Made by a program: the position numbers and the translations under genes
The notes under the pieces: generated by a model
Database searches by the model: none
What the model was told of the DNA's origin: nothing
The model's input: the letters and a program-made list of their open reading frames with translations, nothing else
Assembly (NCBI GenBank): GCA_016794525.1
Contig: JAEUJY010000144.1
Span: 1 to 64,000, forward strand
Direction of reading: 5' to 3'
Length of the DNA: 64,000 nucleotides
Origin: Myxococcales bacterium
Lineage (GTDB): Bacteria > Myxococcota_A > Polyangia > Haliangiales > Haliangiaceae
In this document: piece after piece, positions 4,656-64,000 of the stretch
Position numbering within the stretch: position 1 is the stretch's first letter
Layout: each line of letters begins with the position of its first letter

Positions 4656-4721
4656 GAGGGGCTTTGCGAAAGCCCCTCTCATCAACACGAGGGGCTTTGC
4701 GAAAGCCCCTCTCATCAACAC
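4656..4721. repeat. Two tandem 33-bp units, each a perfect hairpin
   Basis: Two identical 33-bp units lie at 4656-4688 and 4689-4721. Each contains the arms AGGGGCTTT and AAAGCCCCT around a GCG loop (4657-4677 and 4690-4710), followed by CTCATCAACAC. The array begins directly after the stop of the DUF4097 gene, so it could be a doubled terminator or a duplicated REP-like palindrome. No U-tract follows on either strand, so the terminator role is uncertain. The remaining stretch, 4459-4655, holds no recognisable gene. Confidence 0.75.
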
Positions 4722-59288: not shown

Positions 59289-60116
59289 ATGTGTTGCTTC
59301 AGCCGGCCGATCCCGTTCGTGGGCGGCACCAAGATCTTCGGCCGCGTCGACGGCGATCGCCAGTGGCTGGCCTACAGCATGGACTTCGCCGCCCGCGAGG
59401 CGCTGGCGATGGTGCTGCCGCTGCCGGTGCCGGCCGGCACGCCCGAGGACGCGGTGCGGTTCGTCGATCTGTCCGGCTACCGGACGTTCTTCGCCGACGT
59501 CGAGCGCGCCTTCCCGGTGTTCCTGCTGCCGGCGGCCAAGGGCGGGCCGGCGTTCCGCGGCGCGATCCCCGCGCGGCCGAGGCTCAAGGTCCACGAGGTC
59601 GGCGACTTCGTCGCGTCGTTCGTGCCGACCAGCGGCGACTTCGACCGGCTCGACCCGCGGTTCCGGCTGGCGCCCGAGGTCGTCGCGGCGCTCGCGGCGC
59701 AGCGCGACTACGGCTTCGCGGTGGTCCAGCTGGCCGCCACCGGCGCCGGCTGGTGGCGCCGGCTGTGGCGCAAGGTCAAGAGCCTGGCGCCGGTGGCGCT
59801 GTCGTTCCCGACCCGCGACCCCGGCCGGGTGTTCTTCCCGACCGTCCACGTCCACGACGGCGTCGTCCACGATCAGGCCGCGTTCGATCACATGCTGTAC
59901 TGGCAGGGTGGCCCGCCGGAGGGCGACCCGCTGGTGGCGTTGGGCCAGCCGATGAGCGCGTCGGGCCCGCTCGGGCGGACGGTCGACGCGGCGCGCGCCC
60001 GGGGGCTGATCGATCCCGACGCGCCGGCCCGCCGCCGCGTGCTGGTCGGCCGGCTGCCCAACCGCGATCAGTGGATCGACCTCGCGCCGCCGACGCCGGC
60101 CGACGCCGCCGCGTGA
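59289..60116 (+). CDS. Conserved hypothetical protein starting MCCFSRP
   Basis: The 275-residue protein starts MCCFSRPIPFVGGTKIFGRVDGDRQWLAY and continues AREALAMVLPLPVPAGTPEDAVRFVDLSGYRTFF, VHEVGDFVASFVPTSGDFDRLDPRFRL, PTRDPGRVFFPTVHVHDG and FDHMLYWQGG. I recall proteins with this same opening and HVHDG segment in planctomycetes and myxobacteria, with no known function. The invariant Cys residues at positions 2-3 would become N-terminal after Met removal, like an Ntn-type nucleophile, but no other Ntn feature was checked. The protein looks cytoplasmic and lies 56 bases after the lipoprotein gene. Confidence 0.82.
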   Translation: MCCFSRPIPFVGGTKIFGRVDGDRQWLAYSMDFAAREALAMVLPLPVPAGTPEDAVRFVDLSGYRTFFADVERAFPVFLLPAAKGGPAFRGAIPARPRLKVHEVGDFVASFVPTSGDFDRLDPRFRLAPEVVAALAAQRDYGFAVVQLAATGAGWWRRLWRKVKSLAPVALSFPTRDPGRVFFPTVHVHDGVVHDQAAFDHMLYWQGGPPEGDPLVALGQPMSASGPLGRTVDAARARGLIDPDAPARRRVLVGRLPNRDQWIDLAPPTPADAAA

Positions 60117-60122
60117 TACCGT
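60117..60122 (+). promoter_or_regulatory. Extended -10 element (TGA-TACCGT) overlapping a stop codon
   Basis: The TGA stop of the previous gene is also the TGn of an extended -10 box TACCGT that ends 7 bases before the ATG at 60130. This supports that ATG over the GTG at 60121, which lies inside the box. Confidence 0.5.
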
Positions 60123-60129
60123 GGGCGCG

Positions 60130-60666
60130 ATGCGCGCCGCGTTCGCCACCAGCCTGCTCGCCCCGCTCCTCGCCACGGTCGTCGCCACGCTCGTCACGGC
60201 GTCGCCGGCCCGGGCCGACGACGGACCGGCGCCGCTGCCCAAGCGGTGCGCCGCCGACTCGCCGACCGACGCCCCGTGCACCAAGCTGGCCGGGCGGTAC
60301 CGGATCACGCTGGCGCCGCGCGGCCAGGCCTGCGTCGTGACCAAGCCGGCGACCGGGATCCTGACCGTCCGCGGCGAGGGCAAGACCCCGGCGTTCGACG
60401 CCAAGCCGCTGGTCCGCGCGCTCGGCCTCACGCCGGGCAAGGACGACGCGCCGTCGCTCAGCGCCGCCCGGCGCGACGGCGTCTGCTGCATCGACCTCCG
60501 GCTGTACGGCCACGCCGGCGATCGCGGCCAGCGCATCACCGTCAGCCTCGCCGCCGGGGCGACCACGGTGAACGCCAAGGCCCGGGACCGCTGGACCCAG
60601 GACGATCCGGGGCGCGACGAGTGCGGCGACGCCGACCTGGCGGTCACCGTCGAGCGCGTCCGCTGA
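60130..60666 (+). CDS. Small secreted hypothetical protein
   Basis: The 178-residue protein has a signal peptide (RAAFATSLLAPLLATVVATLVTASPARA, cleaved near ARA/DD). The mature part is beta-rich with paired Cys: RCAADSPTDAPCTKLAGRYRITLAPRGQACVVTKPATGILTVRGEG, ARRDGVCCIDLRLYGHAGDRGQRITVSLAAG and DECGDADLAVTVERV. Six Cys suggest disulfide bonds in the periplasm or outside. It is separated from the previous gene by its own promoter. No family was recognised. It is convergent with the diguanylate cyclase gene, with 28 bases between the stops. Confidence 0.75.
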   Translation: MRAAFATSLLAPLLATVVATLVTASPARADDGPAPLPKRCAADSPTDAPCTKLAGRYRITLAPRGQACVVTKPATGILTVRGEGKTPAFDAKPLVRALGLTPGKDDAPSLSAARRDGVCCIDLRLYGHAGDRGQRITVSLAAGATTVNAKARDRWTQDDPGRDECGDADLAVTVERVR

Positions 60667-60694
60667 TCGCGCCGGGCCGCGCGCCGCCGCCGCG

Positions 60695-62446
60695 TCAGGC
60701 GATCGCGCGGTGGGTGCCGCTGTCGTCGGCCCAGTACAGCTCGACGCGGTTCTTGCCGCTGCGCTTGGCGCGGTAGAGCGCGCGGTCGGCGCGCCGCACC
60801 AGGTCCTCGGCGGAGCCCAGGCCGCTGTCGGGGTACGCGGCGATCCCGAACGACGCGGTGACCGACAGCACCGGGCCGTCGGCGGCGACGGCGATCCGCC
60901 GATCGGCGATGCGCGCGCGGATCCGCTCGGCCAGCGCGAACGCCGCCACCAGCTCGGTGCGCGGCAGGATGATCACCAGCTCCTCGCCGCCGTAGCGCGC
61001 GGCGGTGTCGACGCCGCGCAGCTCGCCCTTGACCGCCGCCGCCACCTCGCGCAGCACCCGATCGCCGATCAGGTGGCCGTGGGTGTCGTTGAGGTGCTTG
61101 AAGTCGTCGATGTCGATCATCACGACCGCGAAGGCCTGGCCGTAGCGGCGCGCGCGCTCGATCTCCTCGTCGACGCGGGCGTCGAAGTACCGGCGCACGA
61201 ACAGCCCGGTGAGGCCGTCGACCATCGCCATCGTGTAGAGGTGGGCGTTCTGCAGCGCCGCCCCGACCTGCAGCGCCAGCGACGCCAGCAGCCGCTGATC
61301 GCTGGCGGTGAACGCGCCGACGGTGCGGCTCTGGACCGCCAGCACGCCCTCGCAGGCGTCGGCGACGAACAGCGGCACGCCCAGCCAGGACCGCACGCCG
61401 TCGGTGCCGCTGGGCCCGAGGTCGACGTCGCTGTCGGCGAGGTCGTCGATCGCCAGCGGCGCGAGGGTGGCGACGACGCGGCCGGCGGCGCCGTCGCCGC
61501 GGGCGATCGCCACCCGCGAGAACGCGTCGTGCTCGCGGTCGTAGGCGTCGACGACGAAGCCGTCGGTCTCGCGCTCGGCGCCGCGGTGGATGAGCGCGAT
61601 CGTCTCGGCGGCGGGGATGGCCTGCGCCACCTGGCGCGCCACGGTCGCGACGACGTGCGGCAGCTCGATCGACCGGGCCAGCTCGCGGGCCGAGTGGTCG
61701 AGCTGCTCGAGCTCGCGCACCCGGGCCCGCCACGCGTGGCTGGCCCGGGCCAGGCGGTTGAAGATGAAGTTGACCAGCAGGTAGGTCGCGCACAGGAACG
61801 CGAACGCCAGCTGCTGGCGCGCGGTGAACAGCAGCGCGAGCACCGCGGCCAGCGGCAGCAGCGATCCCTCGGCGAGCATGCCCGGGCCGGCCTGGTCGAC
61901 CACGAACCGCCGCCACGGCTGGCCGCCCAGCACCTGGCGCAGCCCCTGGAGGGCGTTGTGCGCGATCAGGAACGTCGCGCCGACCAGCACGACGTGGATC
62001 GCCACGTCGACCTCGAGGTCGGCGGCGAGGTCGAGCCGCGCGAACAGCGCGGCGATCGCGGCCAGGAGTCCGCCGCTCATGCCACCGAAGTACGCCGCGT
62101 ACAGCAGGCGCTCGCCCATGCGGGCGTCGCGGCGCCGCGGCCCGAACCACGGCCGGGCCAGCGCGTCGGCCGACAGCGTCACCGCGACCATGACGCCGGC
62201 GGCGACCGGGCCCACCGCGACCGCGGCGGCGACGTAGAACGCCGAGTCGAGCGACAGCACGCTGGGCCCGACCCGGAAGGCGAGCGCGCGGGCCGCGGCG
62301 ACGACCGCGACGAAGCCCAGGAACGCCACCGGGCCGGCGCGGTCGGCGAACCCGCCGGCGTGGACGCCGTGACCGACGAGCACACCCCACCCGAGCGCGG
62401 TGAGCGCGACGGTGAACGCGAGCTGTGCGGAGGGACGCGGCGGCAT
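60695..62446 (-). CDS. Membrane diguanylate cyclase (membrane sensor - GAF - GGDEF)
   Basis: The 583-residue protein has about eight N-terminal membrane segments (residues about 10-240), a coiled linker (ELEQLDHSARELARSIELPHVVATVARQVAQ), a GAF domain (about 260-405: AAETIALIHRG, SWLGVPLFVADACEGVLAVQSR, LASLALQVGAALQNA) and a GGDEF domain (about 415-570). The active site reads YGGEELVIILP (GGEEL, active type), preceded by VVMIDIDDFKHLNDTHGHLIGDRVL. It makes cyclic di-GMP from two GTP. An RxxD inhibitory site was not seen. The GAF domain and the membrane part would sense unknown signals. Confidence 0.94.
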   Translation of the reverse strand: MPPRPSAQLAFTVALTALGWGVLVGHGVHAGGFADRAGPVAFLGFVAVVAAARALAFRVGPSVLSLDSAFYVAAAVAVGPVAAGVMVAVTLSADALARPWFGPRRRDARMGERLLYAAYFGGMSGGLLAAIAALFARLDLAADLEVDVAIHVVLVGATFLIAHNALQGLRQVLGGQPWRRFVVDQAGPGMLAEGSLLPLAAVLALLFTARQQLAFAFLCATYLLVNFIFNRLARASHAWRARVRELEQLDHSARELARSIELPHVVATVARQVAQAIPAAETIALIHRGAERETDGFVVDAYDREHDAFSRVAIARGDGAAGRVVATLAPLAIDDLADSDVDLGPSGTDGVRSWLGVPLFVADACEGVLAVQSRTVGAFTASDQRLLASLALQVGAALQNAHLYTMAMVDGLTGLFVRRYFDARVDEEIERARRYGQAFAVVMIDIDDFKHLNDTHGHLIGDRVLREVAAAVKGELRGVDTAARYGGEELVIILPRTELVAAFALAERIRARIADRRIAVAADGPVLSVTASFGIAAYPDSGLGSAEDLVRRADRALYRAKRSGKNRVELYWADDSGTHRAIA

Positions 62447-62642
62447 GGTCGGACCAGACGGCCGACACCTACCACGCCGTCCTGACGCACGCAGTCACAA
62501 TCGACCGCGGCTCAGCGGATGCGGCCCCGCCAGTCCGCGCCGGTCGACGCGGCCCGCGATCCCCGCCCTCCCCATCCCCCGCGCCGGCGCACCGCGCGCC
62601 CGCAGGCTCCCGCGCCGACGCCGTGCGCGTCGCGGGAGGCAA

Positions 62643-62666
62643 CAGGGGCTCGTCGCCGAGCCCCTG
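62643..62666. terminator. Hairpin CAGGGGCTCG-TCGC-CGAGCCCCTG
   Basis: A perfect 10-bp stem with a TCGC loop. It lies 4 bases past the stop of the 57-aa gene (minus strand), a natural place for a terminator, although only TGTTG follows rather than a U-run. Its 19-base core is identical to the one at 57.46 kb. The rest of the 62447-62642 gap holds no recognisable gene. Confidence 0.5.
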
Positions 62667-62669
62667 AGG

Positions 62670-62843
62670 TCAAATATCGATGATGGCGACGCCGCGCTCT
62701 TCGCCCGGAGGCTGAGGCGGCGGGTTGGCTTGTGGGTACGGACGCGGGGTCTCGAGCGGCACCTCGATGCGACGTTCCTGGTCGCGCCGACGCTGCTCTT
62801 CCTCGCGTCGCAAGATCTCTTCGATGATCCAGGGATCCAGCAT
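62670..62843 (-). CDS. Short acidic/basic protein of 57 aa with GVAIIDI end
   Basis: The protein reads LDPWIIEEILRREEEQ after the Met, continues with an Arg-rich stretch and the Pro-rich PLETPRPYPQANPPPQPPG, and ends GEERGVAIIDI. A helical charged N terminus, a proline hinge and a hydrophobic tail are visible. I recall small myxobacterial proteins with the same IIEEI start and hydrophobic IIDI end, of unknown function. It has no signal peptide. The 24-base hairpin after the stop supports a real transcription unit. Codon use is typical of a real gene. The ATG at 62843 has no strong ribosome-binding site. Confidence 0.72.
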   Translation of the reverse strand: MLDPWIIEEILRREEEQRRRDQERRIEVPLETPRPYPQANPPPQPPGEERGVAIIDI

Positions 62844-63208
62844 GATGGGACCGCCCTAGTCTTCCCGGGGCCGCCGGGATGGGTGAAGACGGTGGATGGC
62901 TCTCGTATCCTTAGACGTCCGTTCGGGGCGAAAAGTTTAGGTGCAAACGACGCGCCGCCCCGGGGGATGCCTCAGCTTTAGCATAACGCATGAGAACGGC
63001 GAGGTGACCAGTAAGCGCTGCCACAAGTTTGCCGTCGCGAGTGTGGGCGGAACCGCACGGTCGAGGGGGTCGGATCGGGTCTAGCAACCCCAGGTTCCGT
63101 CGAACCGCCAGCCTCGACGCCAGCTTAGCGCCAGCGCCCGGACAGCGACATTTTTTGCGCGAGTTCGCGCAGACCGTCACCGCCGTTCACGCCCTCGCCG
63201 CCAGGAGA
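62844..63208. other. Intergenic stretch (365 bases), A/T-rich compared with surroundings
   Basis: The region is visibly less GC-rich than its neighbours (AAAAGTTTAGG, TTAGCATAACGC, ACATTTTTTGCGC). An open frame at 62911-63180 on the minus strand gives Arg/Pro-rich sequence without domain features and is not accepted. No tRNA, tmRNA, 6S or RNase P pattern was recognised. The minus strand has TATGCT near 62990 as a possible -10 box that could serve the 57-aa gene. Confidence 0.4.
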
Positions 63209-63886
63209 TCACTCGAGATCTTTGAGCCGCCACCGCCCGTCCTCTTTCACGAACGTCACCTGCTGCCCGGCGCCGTAGCGCATGCGCGCCTCGCCGGGGC
63301 CGACCTCGTCGATCGACTGATCGACGTTGGCCTCGAGGGCGTTGAGCAGCTGGGCCATCGCGTCCTTGCGCTCGCCGGTGAACTGGCCGCGCATCTTCTC
63401 GACGTCCATCAGCTCGGCGTAGGCCTTGGGGACGAAGCGCAGCATCACGTCCCAGCGCTCGAGCCGGTACGCGCGGACGAACGAGCGCAGCGCGGCGCGC
63501 GGCGTCGACTGGTCGTAGAACGCGAGCGGGTTGTCGGCGATGCGCCAGCCGCCGTCCTCCTCGATCAGCCGCAGGCTGTCGCCGAGCCCGTAGACCAGAT
63601 CGGCGGTGACCTGCATCCGCCGCTTGCGGCTGGCCAGCCGACCGGCGGTGTCGTCGACCTCGCGCGGGTTGTCGCGCAGCATGCGGACGAACTCCTCGCG
63701 GCTGACCTTGGCCCGGAACTCCGACGACATCAGGTCGTAGGCGGCCTCGTAGTTCTTGGCGCGCAGCGCCGCCGCGTAGCGGTCGAGCGCGCTGGCCGGC
63801 GCCGCGCCGCGCCCGCTGCACGCGCCGAGCGACAGCGCGGTTCCGAGGAGCACGGCGAGCGAGGTCAGCGCGAGAGGGCGACGCAC
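63209..63886 (-). CDS. Lipoprotein with NTF2-like fold character
   Basis: The 225-residue protein has a lipoprotein signal (ALTSLAVLLGTALSLGACSG, lipobox LGAC). It contains two repeats of the pattern ALDRYAAALRAKNYEAAYDLMSSEFRAKVSREEFVRMLRDNP and ALRSFVRAYRLERWDVMLRFVPKAYAELMDVEKMRGQFTG. Each resembles the helical start of an NTF2-like domain, and each is followed by strands (MQVTADLVYGLGDSLRLIEEDGGWRIAD; VTFVKEDGRWRLKDLE). It may bind a small ligand or assist an envelope complex. The GTG start at 63886 has TATAAC 6 bases upstream. It lies 2 bases after the stop of the partial gene. Confidence 0.85.
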   Translation of the reverse strand: MRRPLALTSLAVLLGTALSLGACSGRGAAPASALDRYAAALRAKNYEAAYDLMSSEFRAKVSREEFVRMLRDNPREVDDTAGRLASRKRRMQVTADLVYGLGDSLRLIEEDGGWRIADNPLAFYDQSTPRAALRSFVRAYRLERWDVMLRFVPKAYAELMDVEKMRGQFTGERKDAMAQLLNALEANVDQSIDEVGPGEARMRYGAGQQVTFVKEDGRWRLKDLE

Positions 63887-63888
63887 GG

Positions 63889-64000
63889 TCAGGTTATAGC
63901 AAACGCGGCGCGCGCCCGCCCCGCGGCGGCGGCGTCGGGGCCGATCGTCGCGAACGCCCGGGTCATCAGCAGCGCGGCCACCGCGACCGCGGCGGCGGCG
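63889..64000 (-). CDS. Partial gene with C-terminal hydrophobic segment (cut by window edge)
   Basis: Only the last 36 codons lie in the window. They read AVAVAALLMTRAFATIGPDAAAAGRARAAFAIT, with one hydrophobic stretch that may be a membrane segment. The TGA at 63889-63891 is 2 bases from the lipoprotein start, so the two could form an operon. The evidence is too short to name a family. Confidence 0.4.
   Translation of the reverse strand, partial: AAAAVAVAALLMTRAFATIGPDAAAAGRARAAFAIT
63893..63898 (-). promoter_or_regulatory. -10 element (TGC-TATAAC) of the NTF2-like lipoprotein gene
   Basis: On the minus strand TATAAC, preceded by TGC, ends 6 bases before the GTG at 63886. It overlaps the end of the upstream partial gene and predicts a leaderless transcript. 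Confidence 0.5.

Follow-up and report, generated by a model that had tools for sequence, protein, structure and literature searches.

A conserved 57-residue protein of Myxococcota that may act as a flexible docking adaptor

The window analysed here, i.e. the whole 64,000-nucleotide stretch of a Myxococcales contig, carries near its end a short minus-strand ORF (62670-62843), which runs from an ATG at 62843 to a TGA at 62672-62670 and encodes MLDPWIIEEILRREEEQRRRDQERRIEVPLETPRPYPQANPPPQPPGEERGVAIIDI (57 residues). On the same strand, its upstream neighbour 365 bp away encodes a 225-residue putative lipoprotein (63209-63886, minus strand) with sub-threshold similarity to the Pfam families DUF4019 and DUF4864, while its downstream neighbour 223 bp away encodes a GAF-GGDEF protein (60695-62446, minus strand). 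No Pfam model covers the long N-terminal part of the latter, which looks membrane-like by eye. The small ORF is preceded by AGGGCGG (62851-62857, minus strand), a ribosome-binding-site-like sequence in place of which many relatives carry AAAGGCGG or AAAGGTGG, and a Shine-Dalgarno-like 4-mer is found upstream of the start in 58 of 67 homologous loci, by a loose test that has no chance control. The start itself is tightly bounded: there is no in-frame ATG, GTG or TTG further upstream in 40 of the 67 loci, including the window, where four codons only separate the ATG from an in-frame stop. An earlier note on this DNA had given the protein an 'IIEEI start'; this motif is indeed present, but at residues 6-10, and the actual N terminus is MLDPW.

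An ORF of 57 codons says little by itself, because the DNA is GC-rich and as many as 34 ORFs of at least 30 residues overlap the 4-kb stretch around it; what raises this one above chance is homology. In a single-sequence search, 34 of 36 relatives gave hits at E<=1, many of these hits being weak and rich in R, E and P; solid matches (E 7.9e-32 to 1.3e-4) were found at 30 places in 29 of the 36 genomes, the window's own genome counted. At least residues 1-56 are covered by 28 of these 30 solid matches, and none contains an internal stop, which is the reverse of the lack of frame-conserved homologues that the earlier note had named as evidence against a gene. Selection on the frame is equally visible. 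Compared with the nearest relative, substitutions at the three codon positions number 7, 1 and 25 (dN 0.08, dS 1.03), and for five further members of the genus dN is 0.17-0.21 and dS 0.73-1.12. The sense frame is open in 67/67 loci by construction; across the same stretch, each of the five alternative frames is broken in part or all of the 67 loci (54, 49, 20, 41 and 67). That this is a chance ORF conserved as a by-product of an RNA or of the opposite strand, a reading favoured by how common long chance ORFs are in GC-rich DNA, is refuted by the concentration of substitutions on third positions, the breakage of all other frames and the lack of an Rfam match, and we give it practically no credence. 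An RNA element as such was likewise rejected, as a search of 60000-64000 against Rfam came back empty, even with hits up to E 1 allowed. The suspicion that this was a real gene is thus borne out by open-frame homologues across the phylum, purifying selection, the AGGGCGG motif and the bounded start, and we regard it as nearly certain, on homology and selection, that the ORF is coding.

How far does the family extend? A first profile (A1), made from 18 members out of 23 proteins, detected it in 209 of 377 phylum genomes. A second (A2), built from 47 of 66 distinct proteins (the 19 others were omitted against redundancy, although a few of them are distinct), detected it at E<=0.001 in 240/377 genomes, 172 of the 235 high-quality ones included, which leaves 137/377 without a match; for both profiles and for the column-information analysis below, the start of L008/L055 (MLDPWVIEE) was trimmed by hand. 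In the window's class, 94 of 104 genomes have an A2 match, according to a hand count from the table. One block, which spans 12 families with 90 genomes and the membership of which was inferred from table order, has none (0/90), and searching ten of these genomes again with a profile restricted to the second and third conserved blocks (B and C, see below) gave no match either. The block doubles as a negative control on the profile, and among the remaining genomes the family is found in 240 of 287. Two matches per genome are found in 21 of the 240 (again counted by hand from the table), and the gene is usually single-copy. In G364 (L096/L123) and G180 (L097/L124), the two genomes for which both sequences were read, one of the paired copies starts with MLP[PS]FIIDQIRRRE and the other with MLPAYIIE[EH]LRRREE, which suggests a duplication followed by divergence of the helix block.

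Scanning 84,980 species genomes with exact peptide patterns of the window protein, which divergent members escape, retrieved nine loci, of which four carry the title Deltaproteobacteria, three Myxococcales, one Nannocystineae and one Proteobacteria. The protein of the Proteobacteria-titled locus (L025) is identical to that of L009 from G020, which is placed in the window's family. The 67 loci and the 95 sequences used throughout contain near relatives, so that counts drawn from them are not independent. A mobile origin, as a phage or plasmid gene, was considered and rejected: the window protein has no match at E<=1 in plasmids and phages, and viral contigs have no match to the single pattern MLDPWII.

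Upstream of the gene, GCGTTATGCT (62980-62989, minus strand) is a candidate -10 region, situated at -146 from the ATG in the window; in several other loci from its family the matching place, at -96 to -189, is occupied by GCGTTAGAAT. A second conserved upstream island (63122-63158, minus strand), which emerged from the genus alignment and has promoter-like spacing, consists of GCAAAAAATGTCG at 63146-63158 and TAAGCT at 63122-63127. Possibly, a long 5' leader or a small RNA begins here. In five other loci (L024, L076, L077, L004 and L005) as in the window, the island reads GCAAAAA[AG]TGTCG, with TAAG[TC]T about 18 bases on, and it lies directly behind the gene for the lipoprotein and some 280 bp ahead of the small gene. 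More generally, a sigma70-like pattern – TTG[AC]nn, a spacer of 16-19, then TAnnnT, TTGCTA or TGCTA[TA] – occurs upstream in 23 of 67 loci, where 3.8 would be expected, a ratio that is optimistic since the pattern was chosen after the enriched words were known; the shuffles preserve base composition only. The window's own upstream region has no match to this -35/-10 pattern and is not among the 23.

Past the stop codon lies a hairpin (62643-62666, minus strand) that is a candidate terminator lacking a T-run. Its perfect 10-bp stem (arms at 62643-62652 and 62657-62666) encloses a 4-nt GCGA loop, and three bases lie between stop and stem. It folds better than shuffled sequence (z -2.94, with one of 200 shuffles as good). 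Perfect stems of at least 10 bp occur at chance frequency in the window (6, against 2, 2, 3, 5, 6, 6, 6, 6, 7 and 7 in ten Markov-simulated windows), hence it is only the position of this hairpin, just past the stop, that is notable; it is suggestive. Elsewhere in the window, two perfect 10-bp hairpins with 3-nt loops stand 10 bases apart (4656-4678 and 4689-4711).

Is this hairpin the gene's own terminator, as had been proposed? The hairpin is real and GC-rich, as an intrinsic terminator demands, and the proposal finds indirect support in how the region folds across the family. In 66 of the 67 loci (L020, with 20 bases downstream, was left out), the 100 nt after the stop have a mean folding z of -1.72, with 33% of values below -2, whereas three sets of control stretches average 0.29 (67 stretches), -0.05 (67) and -0.17 (65), with 1%, 0% and 6% below -2; here too the shuffles preserve base composition only. 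The window's own 100 nt score only -1.4. Within the same distance, a perfect stem of at least 8 bp is present in only 8 of 66 loci (approximately 1.9% of shuffles). Some relatives (L062, L028 and L110) have clear T-run terminators. Not in favour of the proposal are the sequence after the window's stem, TTGCC instead of a T-run, the terminator scan, which does not list this hairpin, and the genus relatives, in which it was not found upon alignment. The window hairpin is a plausible candidate terminator.

The genes around the family are anything but constant. Among 40 loci of 3.9-12.2 kb from 22 families, where genes were called by a simple rule based on GC by codon position and not by a gene finder, no neighbour is found throughout. 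A homologue of the lipoprotein is upstream in 9/40 loci (families f1, f2, f9, f13 and f22) and one of the GAF-GGDEF protein downstream in 7/40 (f1 and f2), while in other lineages the neighbours include opposite-strand genes of the DUF4350 and MoxR types, DUF2520 genes, an FHA/sigma-54 activator and a short-chain dehydrogenase. In 13 of 39 loci, the first gene upstream is encoded on the opposite strand. A tRNA as neighbour was considered and rejected: six of the 40 loci contain a predicted one, of differing kinds and in differing places. In one genome, a tRNA-SeC gene (L058:8091-8184) is predicted on the opposite strand, some 2 kb ahead of the small gene.

These surroundings bear on whether the ORF could be a leader peptide or upstream ORF, regulating its neighbour – here the GGDEF gene – through its translation or through attenuation by the hairpin. 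Such an arrangement would fit the location of the hairpin, which separates the small ORF from the next gene, as well as the six f1 loci in which the GGDEF homologue is the next same-strand gene downstream (it is the second in the f2 locus). However, no GGDEF gene was found in the examined stretch of the other 33 of 40 loci, the nearest downstream gene lies on the opposite strand in 15/40, and it is the protein sequence itself that is conserved phylum-wide, which makes a leader peptide very improbable. As neighbours change between families, a leader peptide or operon partner was rejected. Rather, shifting neighbours, the promoter pattern and a downstream region that folds well together indicate that the gene is most likely an independently transcribed, stand-alone unit.

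What, then, does the protein look like? Column information delineates three conserved blocks. Block A (residues 1-18, MLDPWIIEEILRREEEQR; 62790-62843, minus strand) lies inside and at the start of a predicted helix and reaches 2.1-4.3 bits; block B (residues 26-30, IEVPL in the window and LELPL in many relatives; 62754-62768, minus strand) has columns of 1.7-4.0 bits, with P29 at 4.03, E27 at 3.22 and residues 28 and 30 at 1.98 and 1.67; and block C (residues 49-57, ERGVAIIDI; 62673-62699, minus strand) has columns of 2.2-3.9 bits, R50, G51 and V52 standing at approximately 3.9 each. The motifs that recur are thus MLDPWIIEEI... in the helix, one resembling LELPL and RGVxIIDI. Regular expressions for block B and block C match 65 and 85 of 95 sequences, respectively, compared with 5% and 2% of shuffled ones. 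Between these two blocks runs a linker that varies among members in both length and sequence, 14 of the 17 columns from 32 to 48 holding just 0.6-1.6 bits, although columns 33, 36 and 46 are conserved above 2 bits (3.1, 2.4 and 2.3). Residues C-terminal to block C also differ among members.

By eye, the chain is charged and has neither signal peptide nor membrane segment. An AF2 model computed from 10 sequences contains a single helix (residues 4-26) and no other element, with no strand in the monomer; pLDDT is approximately 85 over residues 1-20 and 51-62 beyond residue 20, for an overall value of 67 and a pTM of 0.31. Judging from this model, the small protein is most likely disordered over much of its length.

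The three blocks do not always travel together. Lineage f10 retains blocks B and C behind different N termini that have no block A, as seen in seven untruncated members (L108, L112, L113, L115, L117, L122 and L127); of its others, L118 runs off its contig, while the matches of L128 and L130 are weaker. The B-C profile matches in 6/7 f10 genomes tested and weakly (E 0.017) in G010, from the window's family, and in the window's genome its one match is the 57-residue gene itself. It follows from f10 that the B-C pair is the core of the family and the helix an optional module.

Family libraries are silent on this protein. At E<=1, neither Pfam nor NCBIfam has a family that matches it, and the best PHROG hit has E 0.74 (0.25 for one relative). 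Across the 47 profile members there are isolated weak hits only, to four Pfam families (best E 0.0074) and one NCBIfam family, each in one member, and among PDB chains nothing is convincing (best E 1.3). A full-text literature search that covered few subscription journals turned up nothing on the family, and neither did term searches in two papers on small-protein databases. The earlier note had called the gene overlooked; what bears on this here is the lack of a family model. As far as could be tested the family is undescribed, although its kind – conserved bacterial small proteins – is known, and it is quite possible that members in public genomes are labelled 'hypothetical protein'.

Comparison with known systems is nevertheless instructive. 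DUF1127 proteins, reported to act on PhoR (PMC12501420), are conserved bacterial small proteins that work by binding other proteins. The window protein resembles them in being very short, conserved and proposed to work through protein-protein contact. Unlike them, it has no Pfam match (nor is DUF1127 among the weak hits of the 47 members), and its family has three blocks and a disordered linker. Another potential parallel is with the QLxLPL-type peptides that bind the beta clamp, for example in Hda; their LxLPL core is approximated by the xLELPL of block B in many members. In contrast to the clamp motif, the initial Gln is present in only 4 of the 65 block B matches, with R in 33, the window included. 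With the defining Gln mostly missing, a beta-clamp-binding motif was rejected, and no link of the family to replication was found.

How might such a protein work? Short conserved motifs in a disordered and charged chain, which has no signal peptide or membrane segment, lead us to infer that the motifs bind proteins and that the protein acts as an adaptor. We would put at about 0.5 the probability that it is an intrinsically disordered, flexible docking adaptor, a reading that draws on sequence conservation and the AF2 model. Docking on one conserved partner, probably through strand addition to it, would fall to a pair of short motifs that are beta-prone, [LI]E[LIV]P[LV] and RGVxIID[LIF], connected by the linker that varies in both length and sequence. 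A second partner or site would be docked, in those members that have it, by the N-terminal helix, which bears a hydrophobic patch of small size (L2, W/F/Y5, I6, I7 and I10) and is followed by a highly charged stretch. What speaks against an adaptor is that no conserved operon indicates a process.

The alternative that survives best is a small domain that needs to oligomerise in order to fold, made up of the helix and of a beta hairpin to which blocks B and C each contribute a strand, as could be the case for a structural or nucleic-acid-binding microprotein in place of a docking adaptor. Both blocks are strand-like and are conserved together even where the helix is missing, and a truly folded, obligate oligomer is conceivable considering that the AF2 model is weak and comes from only 10 sequences. 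Since there is no strand in the modelled monomer, the spacer between B and C varies in length and sequence, and the PDB holds no convincing match, we view this alternative as rather unlikely.

More doubtful, by analogy, is that the protein tethers a substrate to an AAA+ protease, or is a degradation tag, block C being the protease-docking tail. Protease adaptors of the SspB type have a C-terminal docking motif, and almost all family members that were read likewise combine a flexible linker with a terminal motif that is hydrophobic. Unlike these adaptors, however, the protein shows no globular domain for substrate binding in the AF2 model; its sequence matches no solved adaptor, and the residues after block C vary, which implies that the free C terminus is unconstrained. 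A protease tether is accordingly improbable.

A bolder version of the docking adaptor can be envisaged, which we offer as speculation and consider unlikely as it stands, namely that the family is a phylum-signature hub microprotein. Its LELPL...RGVVIID core would dock an essential machine of Myxococcota, individual lineages would attach or drop the N-terminal helix module, and its absence from one block of families would mark a rewired core process.

Whatever its partner, here is a protein that is kept across much of a phylum and yet is too short for any family model searched. In the database sORFdb, only proteins of up to 50 residues are reported to have been clustered into families (PMC11796252), so that a family of 57 residues would not appear among these clusters. 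This illustrates how phylum-level small proteins can slip past family libraries. The gene is also an attractive target for genetics: it is small, usually present as one copy and offers three clear blocks to alter. Myxococcota are known for their complex behaviour, and if the protein is truly the adaptor of a core process, its study would open that process in this phylum.
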